Positions 3,820-12,058 of a DNA stretch of 64,000 nt are shown one piece after another. The stretch's first letter is position 1. Each line of letters begins with the position of its first letter. The notes under the pieces are model-generated. The model had not been told where the DNA came from and searched no databases. It saw only the letters and a program-made list of their open reading frames with translations. The stretch comes from Bdellovibrio svalbardensis (GTDB lineage Bacteria > Bdellovibrionota > Bdellovibrionia > Bdellovibrionales > Bdellovibrionaceae), in the NCBI RefSeq assembly GCF_029531655.1, contig NZ_JANRMI010000004.1:1-64000 (forward strand). Direction: 5' to 3'. Position numbers and translations under genes: made by a program.

Positions 3820-5778
3820 TTAGCCGGCCGCTAGGGCCTTCTGCTCCAGTCTCTTGAGATCTGGGTTGGTATTATAGAATACAAGATCTGTTGTTTTATA
3901 GTGTTCGGCAAGCTGACGCAGAACCCAGGCCCCACTGGCCTTGAAGAGTGGGTTCTTGGAATCCAGGAACTCGTCGAGTTTTCTGGCGAGTTCGCTGTCG
4001 AAATTTCGTTTTCCAGTCACTAAGATGGCATCCGCAGAGACCCGGTTGTTCTTCGAATACATAAAACGTCGGAGGAAAGCAATATCCTGGGCAAGGTCCC
4101 CTAAGACAATGATGGCGTTGGCGTTTACGCGAGCGTCTTTATGATCTAAGCATTTCTCCAGAGACTCAATGAGAGCCGTCTCTACCATCGCAGGTGGAAC
4201 AACATGGCTCGCTATTGAAATCATGGAGGCCATGACCTTATCGCTAACGACTCCCCTTTGATTGAGTTCTGTCGTCTGGATCAAAAGTTCTGAGTACGCT
4301 TGAGCTTGCTCACTGGAAGTTTGCTTGAGCTTATAGGATGCCAGAATTTTATAAGTTTCAAAGAACTCACTGTCTTTGCCGTCCTTCAACTCTTTTGCCA
4401 AAAAGGCGTAAATACTGATCAGATCTTTGTCCCCTCGGAAATAAGTGAGTAGATGGAGATCTTTCTTCCGCAACACTTCTTCGATCGAAGTGAATGTTTT
4501 AGCCCGACATAGCACGGAAGGCTTCGCAAAACCTTTTAAAAGAGTCTCTTTGGTCTGATCTATTGTGCAAAGTTTTTCGACCGATGAAGACGCCTCGGCA
4601 TAGAAGGTCACCGAGCTGGCGGACTTGTCGTCAACCTGACTGAGCAATCGGGCTGATTCGATAAGTGGCAGACCACTGAGCGAAAATCCCGTATCTTGAT
4701 TTACGAAACGAATCTTACCTAGAACAAAACTGCCTTTTACCTTGAAATGGTGATCGGCATTGGCTGCCAGAGACTGTTCAATCTCATCGGCCACCTCGAA
4801 TATACTTCTGAGGACAGCCAAGGCCAAAGCTTGGGAATCGACCGCATTTTCTTTAATGTGGAAGACAATCTCATCACCGACATATTGATAAATAAGACCC
4901 TGATAGCGTTCGATGATCTCACGCGATCTCACAAAGTAGATATTCATGATCTCGGTGACGTATTCATCTTTCTTATCGAGAAAGATCTGCGTGTAACCGT
5001 TGAGGTCCACACGGATCATCGTTGACTGGAAAGAATAAGGAGAGGGCCTGCCCGATTTCATTTCATGTAAAATGGCTGGGGTGAGACTTTCGGAGTAACT
5101 GCGATTTTCATGTTCAAGGTAACGTTTAGTATCATCAAAGCTGCGAGTCGCGTTGATAAGAGTTTGCCCCTCGCGTGAAATACTTTTGACTTTACTTAAG
5201 GCCGAGCGATCCCGGCTGGCCAAAATACGACTGAGATCCAGAATGTCTTTTAAGAAAAGATAGACAATCAAAGCTACAAAAAGAGTCACAACGAGAATAT
5301 CTCGAATGATGAGAGATTTCATTCCCAAGGCGGTATTCCAGATGATTTTATTTTTATTCTGAAAAACACCGACCGTGAACTTATAGTCCATGAGCTTCAC
5401 AGTTCGGAACGCGACATTGTCTGTGGTCAGGATTTGATTGAAGACTTGATAGTCGTAATCGATCCCTTTTAAATTGTCCTTATTGTTGTACCATGCAACA
5501 ACCTGCCCGTTGCGCTGGACAATGTAGAAATCGACAAGAAAGAGCTCCCTGGATTTTTCAAGGCGATCCTTGAGGAGCGAGATGTTTTCTGTAACCAAAA
5601 AAGGAATAACACTTTCCTGCACGTATTGCATAGAACGCTGACGCTCGCGAATTTCGGTTTCAGTCAAATTCTTTGCATTGAGATAGAACTGCACTATTGA
5701 GACTGCGATGTAGCCGATCCAAAAGACGGCTACTATTAGAAGTACGATCGACTTGTTCCATTTACTTTTGGCGAACAA
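3820..5778 (-). CDS. Membrane-anchored class III adenylate/guanylate cyclase with C-terminal HEAT-like repeats
   Basis: 652 residues from a TTG start that has GGGAG six bases upstream. Order: membrane segment about 10-33, extracytoplasmic sensor to about 155, second membrane segment about 158-178, linker, then a cyclase homology domain about 250-430, and alpha-helical HEAT-like repeats about 530-640. The cyclase domain keeps both metal Asp motifs (RVDLNGYT and YVGDEIVFH). It should make cAMP or cGMP; which one cannot be decided here. The start overlaps the end of the upstream secreted-protein gene by 17 bases, so the two are translated from one message. Confidence 0.85.
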   Translation of the reverse strand: MFAKSKWNKSIVLLIVAVFWIGYIAVSIVQFYLNAKNLTETEIRERQRSMQYVQESVIPFLVTENISLLKDRLEKSRELFLVDFYIVQRNGQVVAWYNNKDNLKGIDYDYQVFNQILTTDNVAFRTVKLMDYKFTVGVFQNKNKIIWNTALGMKSLIIRDILVVTLFVALIVYLFLKDILDLSRILASRDRSALSKVKSISREGQTLINATRSFDDTKRYLEHENRSYSESLTPAILHEMKSGRPSPYSFQSTMIRVDLNGYTQIFLDKKDEYVTEIMNIYFVRSREIIERYQGLIYQYVGDEIVFHIKENAVDSQALALAVLRSIFEVADEIEQSLAANADHHFKVKGSFVLGKIRFVNQDTGFSLSGLPLIESARLLSQVDDKSASSVTFYAEASSSVEKLCTIDQTKETLLKGFAKPSVLCRAKTFTSIEEVLRKKDLHLLTYFRGDKDLISIYAFLAKELKDGKDSEFFETYKILASYKLKQTSSEQAQAYSELLIQTTELNQRGVVSDKVMASMISIASHVVPPAMVETALIESLEKCLDHKDARVNANAIIVLGDLAQDIAFLRRFMYSKNNRVSADAILVTGKRNFDSELARKLDEFLDSKNPLFKASGAWVLRQLAEHYKTTDLVFYNTNPDLKRLEQKALAAG

Positions 5779-7945
5779 AGCGATCTCCCTGATCTAGGAA
5801 AATCACTTCACCTTTGGGTGCTCCATAGGAGTTTCCATAGAGATCAAGGATGGTGATTTTTTGAGTTTCAAGTTGTTTTGAAAATGTGGAATCTTTGAGT
5901 TTTGACTTTACCGTGCTGTAGCTGCCATTGGCCACGAAGGTGATTGTTTCCTCTTTGACGGCTGTATTCGCAGATGAGACTGAATTCTTCCCGCTGGCTG
6001 ATGCCGAGGCAGGACCTCGCTTGGGACCTTCACCCACTGTCGCTTCAAGATTGTTTTTGGGTGTGATTCCCGCTGGCGAATCAGAGTTAGAGCTTGCACC
6101 TAGAGCAGAACGACCGGAGGCTGATGGCAAGGCTCGTGAAGAGTCACTGGACGCCAACTCCGAAGCGGGGGATCGATTAGTTCGAGTTTCACCAGATTTG
6201 GATTTAGATGAAGCAGGATTGGCAGCTGACGCAGATCTTGAAACTGTGTCAGCGGAACCGCTTGACCCGTCCAATGTGATGCTTTCAACAACTCGTTCGT
6301 CGGATTTCACTGTTGATTTAACGGTGGATTTCGCCAAAGTAGCAAAATTATTGCTAACCTCTCTGGCCTTGAGTTCCTGACCTAATTCGGACCTTGAATT
6401 CTCTTTGCGGGCTGTTGGAGATTTTGATGGCTCAACTCGATCTGACTTCGCGAGAGAGTCACTCGCAATGGATGGAGTACTCAAGGCCCCCATCATATTA
6501 TTCGCCATTCTTAAAGTGCCACTGCTTTCAGAAGCTGATTGCGAAAGAGCGGCAACGGCGCCCTCTTCCGTTCGTGGTGGTGGATCTGAGATCATTCGAG
6601 AAAGCGTTGCTGGTTCCGGTGTCGCCACCTGGGCCAAAGCCATCTCTTCTTTCATATTTACTGACGACTCAGACGCAATCGTTCGCGAACCCGAAGCTGC
6701 CGGTTGCTTCGCTACTACTCGCGCATTGCCTTGCGGCTTATTGGCTTCGCTGGCAATTTCGGCAGAGCTTTCGGCTGCAGAGCTCTGAACTCCATCCAGG
6801 ACATTGCCTTTTAAAGTGACCGAAAATACGGAAGTATTATTGGCCAAATTAGCTATCACCATTTGCTTCTTGTTTTCTTTTGCAAAATTGCCGCAAGTTC
6901 CCTGAACTTTATCAACCAACTCTTCTTTTTCTATTCCCGACAAATGAAGAAGCTCATGGGTGATCATTTCGACAGAGAACTTTGCATCCTCAGAATCTTC
7001 TTTTAATTTATGGACGACAAACTTTCCATCTTCCGTCGCTTCCATAGGCTTGAAATTCTTTTTATCTTCATCAGTCTGGCAACGTATAAAGCCTTTCTTC
7101 TGCTCGGACGGCTTCATCAATGATTTTTTCTGCAACTGATAGCTGGCCTCGACTCCTTTGAATCCCAAGAGGTCCGCATCAGATTTTGTCAATTTTTCTT
7201 TAAACTGGGGATCCTGAAAGCATTTCTCCATCGAGTCCTGATCAAAAAGAATACGCGCGAGATTGTTCGTAATCTGCTGTTTCTCTCGTCTGGATAGAAT
7301 GGAATCACAGCTTGGGTCAAATCCCCCGTCGCTCATGAAGTCAGTAAATAAAGACTTCTGCATCTCGGCCAACTCCGCTTGCGCTTTACGGGTTGTCGGT
7401 TCTGCAGTGGAGCACAGAGCTGAGTCTTTGACCTTTTCCGGCAGGGCGCTTTTCACAAGCGCCGAGAGCTTCTCTAACATATTTGGCATATTTGCCTGAG
7501 GTTGAGTTTGTGGGTTCGCTCCACTAGATTCAGTTTCTTTACCCGACTCACTGCCAGATTCCTCACTGACTCCAACATCAAAAGCCCACTTTTGCAGAGG
7601 ACGAATTTTGGAGTAAGTCATTTTCAATTTATTACTAGAGTTTCTATAGAGAGCTTCATGGACCTGCGATCCCATTATTTTTTTCACATAAAAGGTTTGA
7701 ATGATTCCCTTTTTGTATGAAACTTCAACTTCCAGAGGACCTTTCTTTAAGCGCCAAAGATCAATGCTGCCATCCCAGTCCGAATCGATACGAATGTCTT
7801 CGTAATCCTTATATGCAATGACAAAGCGTCCGGGCTCATAGTTCGATGGATTGAAAATAATCTGCCCTACGACCAAAGGAGATCGTTTCGGAGCTTGCGC
7901 GAAGCTTGTTTGTATAAAAAGCAGTAGAGCAATGGTTACTTTCAT
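5762..7945 (-). CDS. Secreted Ser/Ala-rich protein with HExxH zinc motif
   Basis: 727 residues from ATG 7945 (a GTG one codon earlier is possible). A signal peptide ends near residue 16 (SFAQA). An EF-hand-like calcium loop DSDWDGSIDLW lies at about 54-64. A helical domain at about 150-360 carries HELLHLSG at 330-337, the zincin metalloprotease signature, followed by acidic residues that could supply the third ligand. Residues 385-640 are low-complexity Ser/Ala/Lys, probably disordered or a surface linker. A short globular C-terminus ends DQGDRFVRQK. Peptidase activity is inferred from one motif. It is the upstream partner of the overlapping cyclase gene. Confidence 0.75.
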   Translation of the reverse strand: MKVTIALLLFIQTSFAQAPKRSPLVVGQIIFNPSNYEPGRFVIAYKDYEDIRIDSDWDGSIDLWRLKKGPLEVEVSYKKGIIQTFYVKKIMGSQVHEALYRNSSNKLKMTYSKIRPLQKWAFDVGVSEESGSESGKETESSGANPQTQPQANMPNMLEKLSALVKSALPEKVKDSALCSTAEPTTRKAQAELAEMQKSLFTDFMSDGGFDPSCDSILSRREKQQITNNLARILFDQDSMEKCFQDPQFKEKLTKSDADLLGFKGVEASYQLQKKSLMKPSEQKKGFIRCQTDEDKKNFKPMEATEDGKFVVHKLKEDSEDAKFSVEMITHELLHLSGIEKEELVDKVQGTCGNFAKENKKQMVIANLANNTSVFSVTLKGNVLDGVQSSAAESSAEIASEANKPQGNARVVAKQPAASGSRTIASESSVNMKEEMALAQVATPEPATLSRMISDPPPRTEEGAVAALSQSASESSGTLRMANNMMGALSTPSIASDSLAKSDRVEPSKSPTARKENSRSELGQELKAREVSNNFATLAKSTVKSTVKSDERVVESITLDGSSGSADTVSRSASAANPASSKSKSGETRTNRSPASELASSDSSRALPSASGRSALGASSNSDSPAGITPKNNLEATVGEGPKRGPASASASGKNSVSSANTAVKEETITFVANGSYSTVKSKLKDSTFSKQLETQKITILDLYGNSYGAPKGEVIFLDQGDRFVRQK

Positions 7946-8097: not shown

Positions 8098-8484
8098 ATG
8101 AAATTATTGATATATTTTTCTGTTTTTCTGGGATCGATCTCTAGCTTTGCTGCCACGACAGAACTCCGTATGTTCTCTGCTGATAAAAAGAAATACGACA
8201 CTGTCAGAGTCACAGAATATCAAGGTGTTAAAATTTCTGAAAGTTGTGTGAAAGCGGGAAAGGCAAATTGCCAGGCCTGGACGGCCGTTCAAAATAAAAT
8301 TCCACAAACTCCCCCGCCGACAGCCGTTCTTGGCAACCCCGCCGCTCATTACTGTCTTGATCAAAAAGCGAACAACCGCATTCTCATCGATGAAAAAAAA
8401 CGAGAATTCGACTTTTGTGTTTTTGCCGATGGCTCAGTGATTGATTCATGGAGCTTATTCAACAAACACTTTGGAGGCAAATAG
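8098..8484 (+). CDS. Exported DUF333-family protein
   Basis: 128 residues with a signal peptide ending near residue 18 (SISSFA). The C-terminal half (NPAAHYCLDQ, then FDFCVFADGSVIDSW) matches the DUF333 pattern of two Cys and a conserved Trp, a family loosely called putative hemolysin without biochemical support. Its stop shares one base with the GTG of the papain-like protease downstream (TAGTG). They are therefore translationally coupled, and this may be a partner or inhibitor of that enzyme. Confidence 0.8.
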   Translation: MKLLIYFSVFLGSISSFAATTELRMFSADKKKYDTVRVTEYQGVKISESCVKAGKANCQAWTAVQNKIPQTPPPTAVLGNPAAHYCLDQKANNRILIDEKKREFDFCVFADGSVIDSWSLFNKHFGGK

Positions 8485-9605
8485 TGCGTCACCAAGTTCT
8501 GGCTTCATTTGTGCTCAGTTTTTCTCTTTTAGGAAGTGTTACCAGCTTTGCCGCTTATGGTTTGAATCCTTTCGGCCCCGAGTTCAAACCTCAAGCTGAC
8601 ACTGTGATTGCAGTTACAAACATGCCGCGAGTGCGCTCCCAGGACACCTTTGGTATCTGTTACGCTTTTGTGGCTTCGACTTTGATTGACGAAGCCAACT
8701 GCGTGCAAAACAAAGTGTCGGACTGTTCTTCTGTTTCGGACAATGACAAGGTTTCACCTTTGGATATGTCTCGCTATTCTCAGAAACTTTCGGATGGTAC
8801 CGATGATACAGATCGCTTTAACTATGAAGGACTTACTGAAGGTGGCAGCGAATCGTTTGCGCTTTTCAATGCGGCTTTTCGTGCGCAATCCATAACTCGC
8901 GAATCTTGTGCTCCCTTTGATCAAGTCGTGGGCAAAGTCAAAGATCCCGCCGAGGCACAACAGCTTGAGATTGCAATGTGGACAAAGTTTAAAGATTCTT
9001 ATGATGCCTACAAGAAAAAGAAAGAAGGTTGCGCGCAATGTGCCTTGGAGTTTGCGACAGCCACTGCCAATGACATCAAACAAGACTACGGACTTAAAGC
9101 TTCAAATCAAGACATCTTGAAGGCCTTTAGCGAAGACAGCTATGGAAAATTTTTGGATAAGATTTTGATTCCAGACAACTGCTGGGATCTCAAGAATCAA
9201 ACAACCTTGAAGGGCGCTTGGACTCAGAATATTTATCCAGAGAAGGGGCAGAAATCAAATTATGCTTCGGCCATCTCGAAGATTAAAGAAGTCCTGACCC
9301 AGAAGCGTCCCCTGTCCTTGGGCTTTTGCACACAGACTCCATTGAAGGCCAAAACCATGGCCGATTGTGGTGTTAAGTCTAAGACTGGAAAACTGGAAAA
9401 AGGCGAATCACATGCAATCGTGATTAAGGGTTATCGCCGTGTCTGCAACAGCGCGAACAAATGCTATGATGCTCTTCAAATTCAAAACTCTTGGGGTGAG
9501 TCTTGGCAGAACTCCAATGACGATGGCTGGGTGGATGCGAAAGAGCTTCTCGACCGCTCGTTCTATGAGACACAAAGCATGACTTGGCTAACTCAACAGA
9601 AATAA
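8484..9605 (+). CDS. Secreted papain-like (C1A) cysteine peptidase
   Basis: I place the start at GTG 8484, with GGAGG six bases upstream and a good signal peptide (ends near SFAAYG), giving 373 residues. The earlier in-frame ATG at 8448 lies inside the DUF333 gene and spoils the signal. Catalytic residues fit family C1: Cys59 in QDTFGICYAF, His310 in GESHAIVIKG, Asn335 in QNSWGESW. A Cys-rich insert (EGCAQCALEF) is present. It likely degrades protein outside the cytoplasm, plausibly prey or scavenged protein. Confidence 0.88.
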   Translation: MRHQVLASFVLSFSLLGSVTSFAAYGLNPFGPEFKPQADTVIAVTNMPRVRSQDTFGICYAFVASTLIDEANCVQNKVSDCSSVSDNDKVSPLDMSRYSQKLSDGTDDTDRFNYEGLTEGGSESFALFNAAFRAQSITRESCAPFDQVVGKVKDPAEAQQLEIAMWTKFKDSYDAYKKKKEGCAQCALEFATATANDIKQDYGLKASNQDILKAFSEDSYGKFLDKILIPDNCWDLKNQTTLKGAWTQNIYPEKGQKSNYASAISKIKEVLTQKRPLSLGFCTQTPLKAKTMADCGVKSKTGKLEKGESHAIVIKGYRRVCNSANKCYDALQIQNSWGESWQNSNDDGWVDAKELLDRSFYETQSMTWLTQQK

Positions 9606-10471: not shown

Positions 10472-11134
10472 CTATTCTTGAACTGTGATCCAGACTTTGT
10501 AGATACCGTGCTGTCTTACCAGTCGGTTGAAGTATAAAGCATTGTCTGGGTGCACGCGCACACAGCCATGAGAAGCGCGGGTTCCAAGCTTTTTCCAGTT
10601 CGCAGTACCAGTTCCATGAATTGCAAATCCACCGCTGATGAAAACTGCGTAAGGCATGTTGCCAAGACCTTTATAGTCGCCCCCTGGATATTTCGTGGAA
10701 GAATACTTGTCATAGATGCGGCCGTTGGGATTTGTATCAAAGTTTGGAGTTCCATGACCAGGAGCCCCTGTTGAAACTGCCCAAGTCGCAGAGTGCACAC
10801 CATTCAAATACAAATACAATTCTTGGCGAGATTTAGAAACCTGCACCCATACTGGGCAACCATCACGGAAACAACCCGTTCCAAATGGACGAAGTAGATT
10901 TTCAATGAATGGAGAGATTCCAGTTTCTTCCTGATAAATCGTGTCTAAATTTTGTAAGGTCTCGTCAATGTTTGGGTCAAATGGATTGAGGTCATCCAAT
11001 GTGTTGTTCTCTGAATCAACTGTTTGTTCTTGCTCCTGTGCTAAATCTTGCCCTTGTTCTTGTAGAAGTTGAGCGTGTGCCGTAAGCGTCATTGTCGGAA
11101 GCAAGAAAAGCGCGATGAATAAAAGTCTGACCAT
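10472..11134 (-). CDS. L,D-transpeptidase (YkuD domain), exported
   Basis: 220 residues from ATG 11134, which has AAGGGG upstream and gives a proper signal peptide (ends TAHAQ). An upstream in-frame TTG at 11158 is less likely. A Gln/Glu-rich stretch follows the signal, then the YkuD catalytic domain about 95-218 with His in IHGTG and the SHGCVRVH active-site Cys motif. Enzymes of this family make 3-3 cross-links in murein or attach lipoproteins to it, in the periplasm. The substrate side is not predictable. Confidence 0.92.
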   Translation of the reverse strand: MVRLLFIALFLLPTMTLTAHAQLLQEQGQDLAQEQEQTVDSENNTLDDLNPFDPNIDETLQNLDTIYQEETGISPFIENLLRPFGTGCFRDGCPVWVQVSKSRQELYLYLNGVHSATWAVSTGAPGHGTPNFDTNPNGRIYDKYSSTKYPGGDYKGLGNMPYAVFISGGFAIHGTGTANWKKLGTRASHGCVRVHPDNALYFNRLVRQHGIYKVWITVQE

Positions 11135-11296
11135 GAGAGAACCCCTTTTTAAAATCAAAGGGGAGAATTATAGGCGACATTATGTTTTGGCAATGACGAA
11201 GTTGTAAGAAATGCTCTGCTCCAATAGCGATTGCATCCTTGTTGAATTCTAGCTTCTGGCGCAATACGACGCGTCAGTGAGGGATCTTAACACTCG

Positions 11297-12058
11297 TTAA
11301 GACGGCCCTACAGACAGAACCACACTTCCGCCCTTCAATAGGTTAATCACCAAGTTTTTATTGGCTTGCGAAAACGCGGGACAACCCCAGCTGCGTCCCT
11401 GAATAACGGAGCGATCTTGAACATAATCGGAACCATGAATGACGATGGCTCTGGATCTCGCATTTGAGTTTGTTGAAGAAAGACCATCGAGTCTTAAGGA
11501 GTAGCCATTTCCGCCTTGATAAGTCTCTGCCGTCATAAAGTACCCCAACGAGGTCGCATTGGATCCAGGAGTGTTACTAAATTTCTCCGCCATCCCGTCA
11601 TGATTGCTGTCAGAGCCTTTGCCGTGGGCCACGTGAAAGGCTTGCACCCCACCCGTTTTCATATCGATGATGAAGGCTCTCTTTTCTTTTGAAGATTTAC
11701 TGTAATCAATGATCGTTAAAACATTCTTGTTTTTGATTTGCGATAAATTCAAATCATAAAAGATGATGGCATTCTCCAAAGCTGTTTCAGCAATGATTTT
11801 ATTTGGATCAACATAATCATATCTTTGCAAAATCTTGGTGCGCTCTTCCGAGCCGGCTGGGGGATTTTCATAGTTCAAAGAAGACAAATTCACTGAGGAA
11901 GTTTTTTGCATGTTCCCACTGAAAACTTGCTCTGTCGAGGGATCGTCATTGAGGCGTTCGGAGTAAACGCTGTTCGCGGGACCACATGCCGCTAAAGAGA
12001 ATATAAATCCGAATGTGAAGAGTTGTTTTTTGAAGTTCCCTGATGCCATGCCGATCAC
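11297..12058 (-). CDS. Lipoprotein of the YkuD_2 murein L,D-transpeptidase-like family
   Basis: 253 residues with a lipobox (SLAAC, Cys25). The C-terminal domain contains HGSDYV and SWGCPAFS, the His and Cys motifs of the YkuD_2 branch (PF13645 type), which differs from the classic SHGC form next door. It probably acts on periplasmic murein while anchored in the outer membrane. It is on the same strand as the classic L,D-transpeptidase with 160 bases between them, so a joint transcript is possible but not certain. Confidence 0.88.
   Translation of the reverse strand: MIGMASGNFKKQLFTFGFIFSLAACGPANSVYSERLNDDPSTEQVFSGNMQKTSSVNLSSLNYENPPAGSEERTKILQRYDYVDPNKIIAETALENAIIFYDLNLSQIKNKNVLTIIDYSKSSKEKRAFIIDMKTGGVQAFHVAHGKGSDSNHDGMAEKFSNTPGSNATSLGYFMTAETYQGGNGYSLRLDGLSSTNSNARSRAIVIHGSDYVQDRSVIQGRSWGCPAFSQANKNLVINLLKGGSVVLSVGPS

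Follow-up and report, generated by a model that had tools for sequence, protein, structure and literature searches.

A predicted exported, zincin-like protein and a membrane class III nucleotidyl cyclase are encoded by neighbouring genes that form a conserved unit in the order Bdellovibrionales and slightly beyond. In the 64,000-nucleotide stretch of Bdellovibrio svalbardensis DNA analyzed here (contig NZ_JANRMI010000004.1, positions 1 to 64,000; hereafter the window), the gene for the exported protein, termed the partner, lies at 5762..7945 (727 amino acids, ATG start) and the cyclase gene at 3820..5778 (652 amino acids, TTG start), both on the (-) strand, to which all partner and cyclase coordinates below refer. 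New here are the proximity of peptidase genes to the partner gene, the enrichment of a short motif, RxPAS, in the partner, and a cyclase-associated domain at the partner C-terminus. An earlier reading of the window, made from its sequence only, had proposed a ligand or processing factor and its receptor. The conserved unit and the receptor-like class III cyclase agree with that proposal, while the nearby peptidase, the small protein DUF333, RxPAS and the domain at the partner C-terminus, none of which it mentioned, favour a peptidase-linked module over a plain ligand/receptor pair. We therefore tentatively suggest a signaling module of peptidase, zincin-like ligand and receptor cyclase, a reading that we regard as plausible while still somewhat short of probable.

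A partner gene was found directly upstream of 47 out of 51 distinct family cyclases and in 10 of 11 further assessable full-length family cyclases, and the two genes are thus not separated in most relatives, as the sequence-only reading had required. The search was for a same-strand open reading frame (ORF) of at least 300 amino acids within -200 to +700 nucleotides upstream, which 49 of the 51 cyclases possess; two of these were removed, namely a subtilase (L084, Pfam E=1e-49) and an 811-residue, housekeeping-looking ORF (L106), which we take to resemble Tex. No upstream ORF of 300 amino acids exists at L081 and L111; the latter starts at a contig end, and the former has, at the partner position, a short remnant that is rich in Ser and contains a single RxPAS. 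Cyclases with identical last 300 residues, mostly L113-L137, were counted once, weak cyclase matches and matches at loci that were not examined were left out of the counts, and five loci without a cyclase in the examined stretch (L079, L080, L101, L102, L105) stand outside the 51. The later set comprised 17 loci, ten of them with a partner (L140, L141, L143, L144, L145, L149, L150, L151, L153, L156); at L140, L141 and L149, where contig ends truncate the partner, it was identified by eye from its C-terminus. Uncounted in this set were L146 and L148 (contig ends), L152 (identical to L135) and the distant L147, L154 and L155, which come from other families of the phylum and encode proteins of approximately 1000 residues in which a distant cyclase is combined with a HEAT-like region. 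For seven genomes, two family cyclases were examined: in five of them every cyclase has its own partner (G102, G084, G075, G080, G092), and in G035 (L084, L107) and G042 (L081, L108) one of the two is paired. At L150 (5095-10879), tandem HExxH partners of 938 and 934 residues precede a single cyclase.

The partner and cyclase genes overlap at 5762-5778, placing the cyclase TTG 17 bases inside the partner gene end; both ORFs and the overlap were verified, in agreement with the start that had been assigned from the sequence. A putative cyclase ribosome binding site (AGGGAG, 5785..5790) lies within the partner gene, 6 nucleotides before the TTG. The two genes overlap or are separated by at most 31 nucleotides in 38 of the 47 pairs, a count that uses the earliest in-frame starts and overstates some overlaps, and this arrangement suggests that they are co-translated. 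A scan for promoters and terminators was uninformative (10 promoter-like sites against 6.0, standard deviation 2.3, in shuffled sequences; 5 terminator-like sites against 5.5).

By its fold, the membrane protein of the window is a class III cyclase. A profile of the family matched the solved structures of CyaB from P. aeruginosa (3r5g, E=9.7e-11) and of the light-activated OaPAC (E about 5e-10, profile positions 215-426), and the AlphaFold2 model (mean predicted local distance difference test score, pLDDT, 86.2) superimposes on CyaB 3r5g_B with a TM-score of 0.81 of the target (Foldseek E=4.7e-9). The protein begins with a transmembrane segment (residues 11-29), an extracytoplasmic sensor region (about 66-152) and a second transmembrane segment (156-174), encoded at 5257..5748 and delimited from the model and hydropathy. 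The cyclase assignment and the extracytoplasmic region of the sequence-only reading are thereby borne out, and all 49 cyclases checked have at least two Kyte-Doolittle hydrophobic segments in their first 320 residues. The sensor is modeled as one long helix with five strands, and its profile weakly matched ResE (4zr7, E=0.0084), two observations that bear on a possible Cache/PAS-like fold. The cyclase domain (residues 248-429, 4492..5037; alignments and model) is followed by a C-terminal helical, HEAT-like domain (residues 432-651, 3826..4485; Pfam HEAT_2 and model). Taken alone, the window cyclase (P0001) failed to match Guanylate_cyc of Pfam at E <= 1 and showed only weak HEAT repeats, and at E <= 0.1 Guanylate_cyc was detected in 3 and HEAT_2 in 16 of 34 family members. 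At L082 and other loci, stand-alone frames of approximately 230-270 residues are related to the HEAT-like domain; the one in L082 lies directly downstream of the cyclase.

Residues R256, D258, N260, G301, K348, R550 and R579 are invariant in a 34-sequence cyclase alignment, and D302, E303, R377 and K415 are kept in at least 90% of its members; in a 26-sequence set both metal-binding aspartates, D258 and D302, are invariant. R377 and K415, assigned by motif, are presumably the transition-state Arg and Lys. The column of the usual transition-state Asn, placed by spacing, is occupied by I373/E374, and some class III cyclases vary at this position. We take the window cyclase to have Gln where Lys is usual and Ile where Asn is usual, a combination compatible with more than one substrate; the product would most likely be cyclic AMP (cAMP). 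L084 is the only cyclase of the 34 with a Ser in place of D302, and it is also the one with a subtilase upstream and no partner, so that metal site and partner were possibly lost by joint decay.

The partner starts with a hydrophobic stretch, contains no further transmembrane segment and is predicted to be exported. A likely signal peptide (residues 1-18, MKVTIALLLFIQTSFAQA; 7892..7945, cleavage site placed by eye from the hydrophobic N-terminus) precedes an N-terminal beta domain defined by the AlphaFold2 model (residues 20-117, 7595..7888), in which the pattern DSDWDGSIDLW (residues 54-64, 7754..7786) forms an EF-hand-like loop; a strict version of this pattern occurs in 27 of the 47 partners. 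It is followed by a zincin-like helical domain delimited from alignments and model (6863..7480), with the conserved cysteines C178, C213, C242, C289 and C351 and the HELLH motif (residues 330-334 counted from the ATG, 6944..6958), and then by a Ser/Ala-rich linker (5945..6823) recognized from the partner sequences. The EF-hand-like loop, HELLH and the numbering of its Glu331 had been read correctly from the sequence; the low-complexity part is about 290 residues long rather than the approximately 250 first given. The partner diverges faster than the cyclase (37% versus 66% identity in the best segments to genome G006), and within its own genome its gene has one match at E <= 1.

Searches for the family of the partner returned little. 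Alone, it matched no family in Pfam or NCBIfam at E <= 1, and its profile gave four weak, unrelated matches among PDB sequences (best E 0.16). Among 19 partner domains, Pfam assigned weak zincin-like names (SprT-like, M91, M76, Zincin_1) to one or two members each, with best E values of 0.027-0.15, next to EF-hand and unrelated names. In the AlphaFold2 model of residues 20-395 (mean pLDDT 73.0, predicted TM-score 0.51), the beta domain has pLDDT block means of 84-96 for residues 40-119 and 61 for residues 20-39, and a second domain consists of helices and a small sheet; the region of about 120-154 and the end of the linker have no predicted structure. Foldseek found no match for this model at E <= 0.001, the beta domain filling the match list. 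With VIA-align, the zincin-like domain aligned to the zinc endopeptidase AsaP1 (Z 6.3, root-mean-square deviation 3.8, 135 aligned residues, model 179-336), a middling value that may reflect a common arrangement only.

The zinc motif is widely kept, and it is nevertheless absent in some lineages from otherwise intact pairs. HExxH occurs in 40 of the 47 partners (300 shuffles: mean 0.26, maximum 3) and a Glu at exactly +11 from the first His in 28; in the genus, HExxH and the five cysteines are present in 22/22 sequences. A 19-sequence partner alignment, whose members were picked because they carry HExxH, shows H330, E331, H334, C178, C213 and C289 to be invariant and E341, C242 and C351 to be kept in at least 90%; E341 (6923-6925) is thus by conservation the candidate third zinc ligand in HExxHxxGxxxE. 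The window partner carries both HExxH and this third ligand. The remaining seven partners (L082, L085, L087, L088, L090, L091, L092) lack this combination and have no HExxH, and all seven retain the linker, the C-terminal domain and the cyclase; in L090, LLKEMLRASG stands at the place of ITHELLHLSG in the window, as aligned by eye. The conservation of the zinc motif on which the sequence-only reading depended therefore holds in all 22 sequences of the genus and for most of the wider set, and fails in 7/47. Since pair, linker and C-terminal domain persist in these seven, the zinc site is not essential to the partnership, and HExxH as the constant core of the unit was ruled out. Catalysis is, on this sequence evidence, unlikely to be the constant job of the partner.

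What most of the 47 partners do share is a small C-terminal domain within the last 60 residues (668-727, 5765..5944; alignment and profile search) with the signature Y..L..F..L..I.D..G...G, in which L693 is found in 43, G705 in 42 and G709 in 41 of the 47 (numbering one above the ATG count). A profile built from 15 family members, 14 paired and one orphan, detected this domain at 36 places in 59 genomes, 31 of which precede a family cyclase in the examined loci; since the profile was drawn from the family itself, the news lies in the scarcity of other places. The remaining five are second copies in G011, G012 and G022, a contig-end copy in G008 and a 106-residue ORF in G013. This last frame (G013:C1:2255170-2255373) carries the C-terminal domain alone. 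Conservation as a mere by-product of gene overlap was ruled out, as L066-L069 keep the domain with gaps of 111-119 nucleotides between the genes.

The linker carries the second recurrent feature. Two copies of RxPAS were found by motif scan in the window partner (RSPAS, residues 591-595, 6161..6175; RGPAS, residues 643-647, 6005..6019), and the linkers of 20 of the 47 partners hold 32 copies in total (200 shuffles: mean 0.95, maximum 5). Whole partners contain 36 copies in 34,751 residues, distributed over 22 of the 47 sequences, compared with five in 153,424 residues for the 448 remaining ORFs at these loci; an Arg stands two positions before PAS in 36/50 cases. Many of the 47 partners are related, so these copies are not independent. 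In its own genome (window plus 400 kb; 400 ORFs, 136,871 residues) the only two copies are those of the window partner; RxPAS was found in none of 11 other low-complexity ORFs in these 464 kb, and a habit of the low-complexity proteins of this genome was thus ruled out as its source. Of the five copies outside partners, one belongs to the partner remnant at L081 and four to cyclases (residues 84, 128, 128 and 161), those of L096 and L106 falling between the transmembrane segments according to the 34-sequence alignment. As three of the four RxPAS-bearing cyclases come from one genus, we make no claim of complementary occurrence in partner or cyclase. Dependence of RxPAS on the C1 peptidase described below was also ruled out, the motif being present at loci with a trypsin-like or no recognized peptidase. 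Docking, cleavage and modification are all possible roles of RxPAS.

Divergently from the partner gene, the window encodes on the (+) strand a small DUF333 protein (8098..8484, Pfam E=4.3e-13), which recurs at other loci, and a papain-like (C1) peptidase (8448..9605), probably exported. The latter was assigned to C1 by its Pfam score (23.0 bits, cutoff 20.7), its recurrence and its Cys-His-Asn motifs (QDTFGICYAF, SHAIVIKG, NSWG). In 36 of the 47 pairs, one of the first two genes upstream of the partner encodes a peptidase, of C1 type in 23 and trypsin-like (S1) in 13, the latter with Pfam Trypsin or Trypsin_2 at E <= 0.0013 and in some cases under the curated cutoff. The C1 set consists of the 22 loci of the genus, where a divergent papain-like gene is located closely upstream of the partner gene, and of L090; the C1 sequence at L109 is a 75-residue fragment at a contig end. 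DUF333 lies between the C1 and partner genes or beside them in 18 of these 22 loci; in L103, L104 and L109 its position is downstream of the partner, between it and the cyclase. For a rough base rate, profiles built from the near-partner peptidases were run against the 464 kb from its own genome; of the 400 ORFs there, one matched C1, namely the window's own, and two matched S1. All seven partners without HExxH have a peptidase nearby. In four of the ten later pairs Pfam supports a peptidase (L143, C1 slightly under the cutoff; L144, L151 and L153, S1), L145 and L156 have candidates without Pfam support and none was seen at L150; the neighbourhood could not be judged at L094 among the 47 or at L140, L141 and L149 among the later pairs. 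In place of a peptidase, a fumarylacetoacetate hydrolase gene lies upstream of the partner in L095, L096, L097, L112, L134 and L135, and the other pairs without peptidase are preceded by a thiamine phosphate synthase (L099), ankyrin repeats (L100), a weak propeller (L110) or a gene of no family (L098). L150 also belongs to a lineage with a fumarylacetoacetate hydrolase gene ahead of the partner. Three orphan partners (L080, L101, L102), all second copies without a cyclase and without RxPAS, are adjoined by C1 and DUF333 genes, which argues that the peptidase follows the partner.

A constant receptor and C-terminal domain, a variable linker in which a short motif recurs, a zinc site that can be lost and a switch of peptidase class together fit a receptor cyclase whose ligand is linked to a peptidase. 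In such a module the peptidase encoded nearby, which is probably exported and belongs to the papain-like type in Bdellovibrio and to the trypsin-like type in many relatives, would act on the partner or be held by it. The partner would offer its long, flexible and often RxPAS-bearing linker and its small C-terminal domain, and this linker/C-terminal part could engage the extracytoplasmic sensor of the downstream cyclase. The class III domain would then produce the cyclic nucleotide, for which cAMP is the most likely candidate, and the HEAT-like region in the cytoplasm might regulate this step. Linker cleavage, sensor binding, cyclase activation and the nucleotide product are inferred.

Several observations weigh against this proposal. 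No recognized peptidase was found upstream in 10 of the 47 pairs, where not every second neighbour was scanned, and in seven of the ten Pfam identifies other genes upstream. Even where a peptidase is present, DUF333 intervenes between it and the partner in 10 C1 loci and one other gene does so in L087, L088 and L092. Exact RxPAS is absent from 25 of the 47 partners. At L142, a 201-residue ORF is all that lies upstream of the cyclase and there is no partner, and no such partner was found upstream of L147, L154 and L155, the distant proteins that combine cyclase and HEAT-like parts. Given the three orphans without a cyclase, the peptidase may serve the partner apart from signaling, and in Bdellovibrio the divergently transcribed peptidase gene could form a unit of its own.

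These points bear on the alternatives as well. The partner might be a constitutive, sensor-binding accessory, either co-receptor or inhibitor, built on a zincin-like scaffold, with the peptidase unrelated to signaling. The seven partners that lost HExxH while keeping pair and C-terminal domain, and the ten pairs without a recognized peptidase, are what such an accessory would predict; the recurrence of peptidases of two unrelated folds near the partner, the C1 genes that stay with orphan partners and the retention of HExxH in most lineages are not, and we consider this explanation rather unlikely. If the partner were instead an active exoprotease, for example in prey digestion, the cyclase would be merely co-expressed or control its production, and the two proteins would make no contact. 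HExxHxxGxxxE, the conserved cysteines and the VIA-align match to AsaP1 (Z 6.3 over 135 residues) suit a secreted zinc peptidase. Under this assumption, however, it is difficult to see why the pair persists where HExxH is lost, why the linker motif also occurs in four cyclases and why every cyclase comes with a partner of its own in five of the seven genomes with two examined cyclases, so that a free exoprotease appears unlikely.

A further alternative is that the partner binds zinc or calcium and reports metal supply to the cyclase. The EF-hand-like loop in 27 and HExxHxx....E in 28 of the 47 partners would be in keeping with this role. Pra1 of Candida has an M35-like fold. It is described as a zinc scavenger (PMC3386192). 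Yet some lineages do without the metal motifs, and the proximity of peptidases would be left unexplained, which makes metal reporting by far the least probable of the explanations considered. The peptidase-linked ligand for a receptor cyclase remains our preferred, tentative reading.

Within known systems, the window cyclase is closest to the CyaB, CyaC and OaPAC type, with which it shares the catalytic fold and D258, D302, R377 and K415. In contrast to these, it has two transmembrane segments, an extracytoplasmic sensor and a C-terminal HEAT-like domain, and Pfam misses most members of its family. The aspzincin or deuterolysin (M35) peptidases, such as AsaP1, share an exported HExxH domain with the partner; their third ligand is an Asp, whereas the candidate third ligand of the partner is the conserved Glu that follows the first His at +11, and Pfam M35 matched neither the window partner (E <= 1) nor any of 19 family domains. 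The cyclases CyaD1, CyaD2 and CyaK of Sinorhizobium meliloti, which act with the outer-membrane protein NsrA, are likewise membrane proteins, and a protein signal as well as an extracytoplasmic protein take part in their input (PMC13001267). They differ by their CHASE2 sensors and the beta-barrel, and the passages of that paper on the topic mention no zincin-like protein or peptidase.

For Bdellovibrio itself, the window cyclase is presumably the orthologue of Bd0081, an assignment made through genome G006, taken to be that of strain HD100, whose cyclase lies at 74.8-76.7 kb. Bd0081 is listed among the annotated adenylate cyclases of B. bacteriovorus HD100 (PMC6717892) and among the cAMP/CRP-related proteins deregulated in stator mutants (PMC11323537), and the passages of these papers that name it describe no partner, peptidase or mechanism. 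They were the only Bdellovibrio papers among those listed by a literature search for bd0080-bd0083; PMC12034629 concerns other proteins in the passages seen. Among the titles and abstract openings listed by literature searches, none describes the partner/cyclase pair, and the cue that raises cAMP in Bdellovibrio is left unexplained in the literature passages on that topic.

The paired partner, the class-switching peptidase, the short linear motif and the signature C-terminal domain provide a concrete candidate input to Bdellovibrio cAMP. In a more specific and doubtful version, the receptor cyclase would be gated by proteolysis: a peptidase of exchangeable class would cut or release the partner at or near RxPAS, the freed C-terminal domain would be the ligand, and Bdellovibrionales would read proteolysis outside the cell as a cyclic nucleotide. 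If true, this would be a bacterial counterpart of protease-activated receptor signaling, sensing proteolysis for instance inside prey, and would show bacterial predators coupling extracellular proteolysis to intracellular signaling.

Elsewhere in the window, two L,D-transpeptidase genes (YkuD, YkuD_2) lie near each other at 10472-12058. The stretch 38000-64000 has a lower G+C content and negative GC skew, with a sulfatase gene at its edge and a DegT-type aminotransferase gene, and is perhaps a surface polysaccharide cluster.

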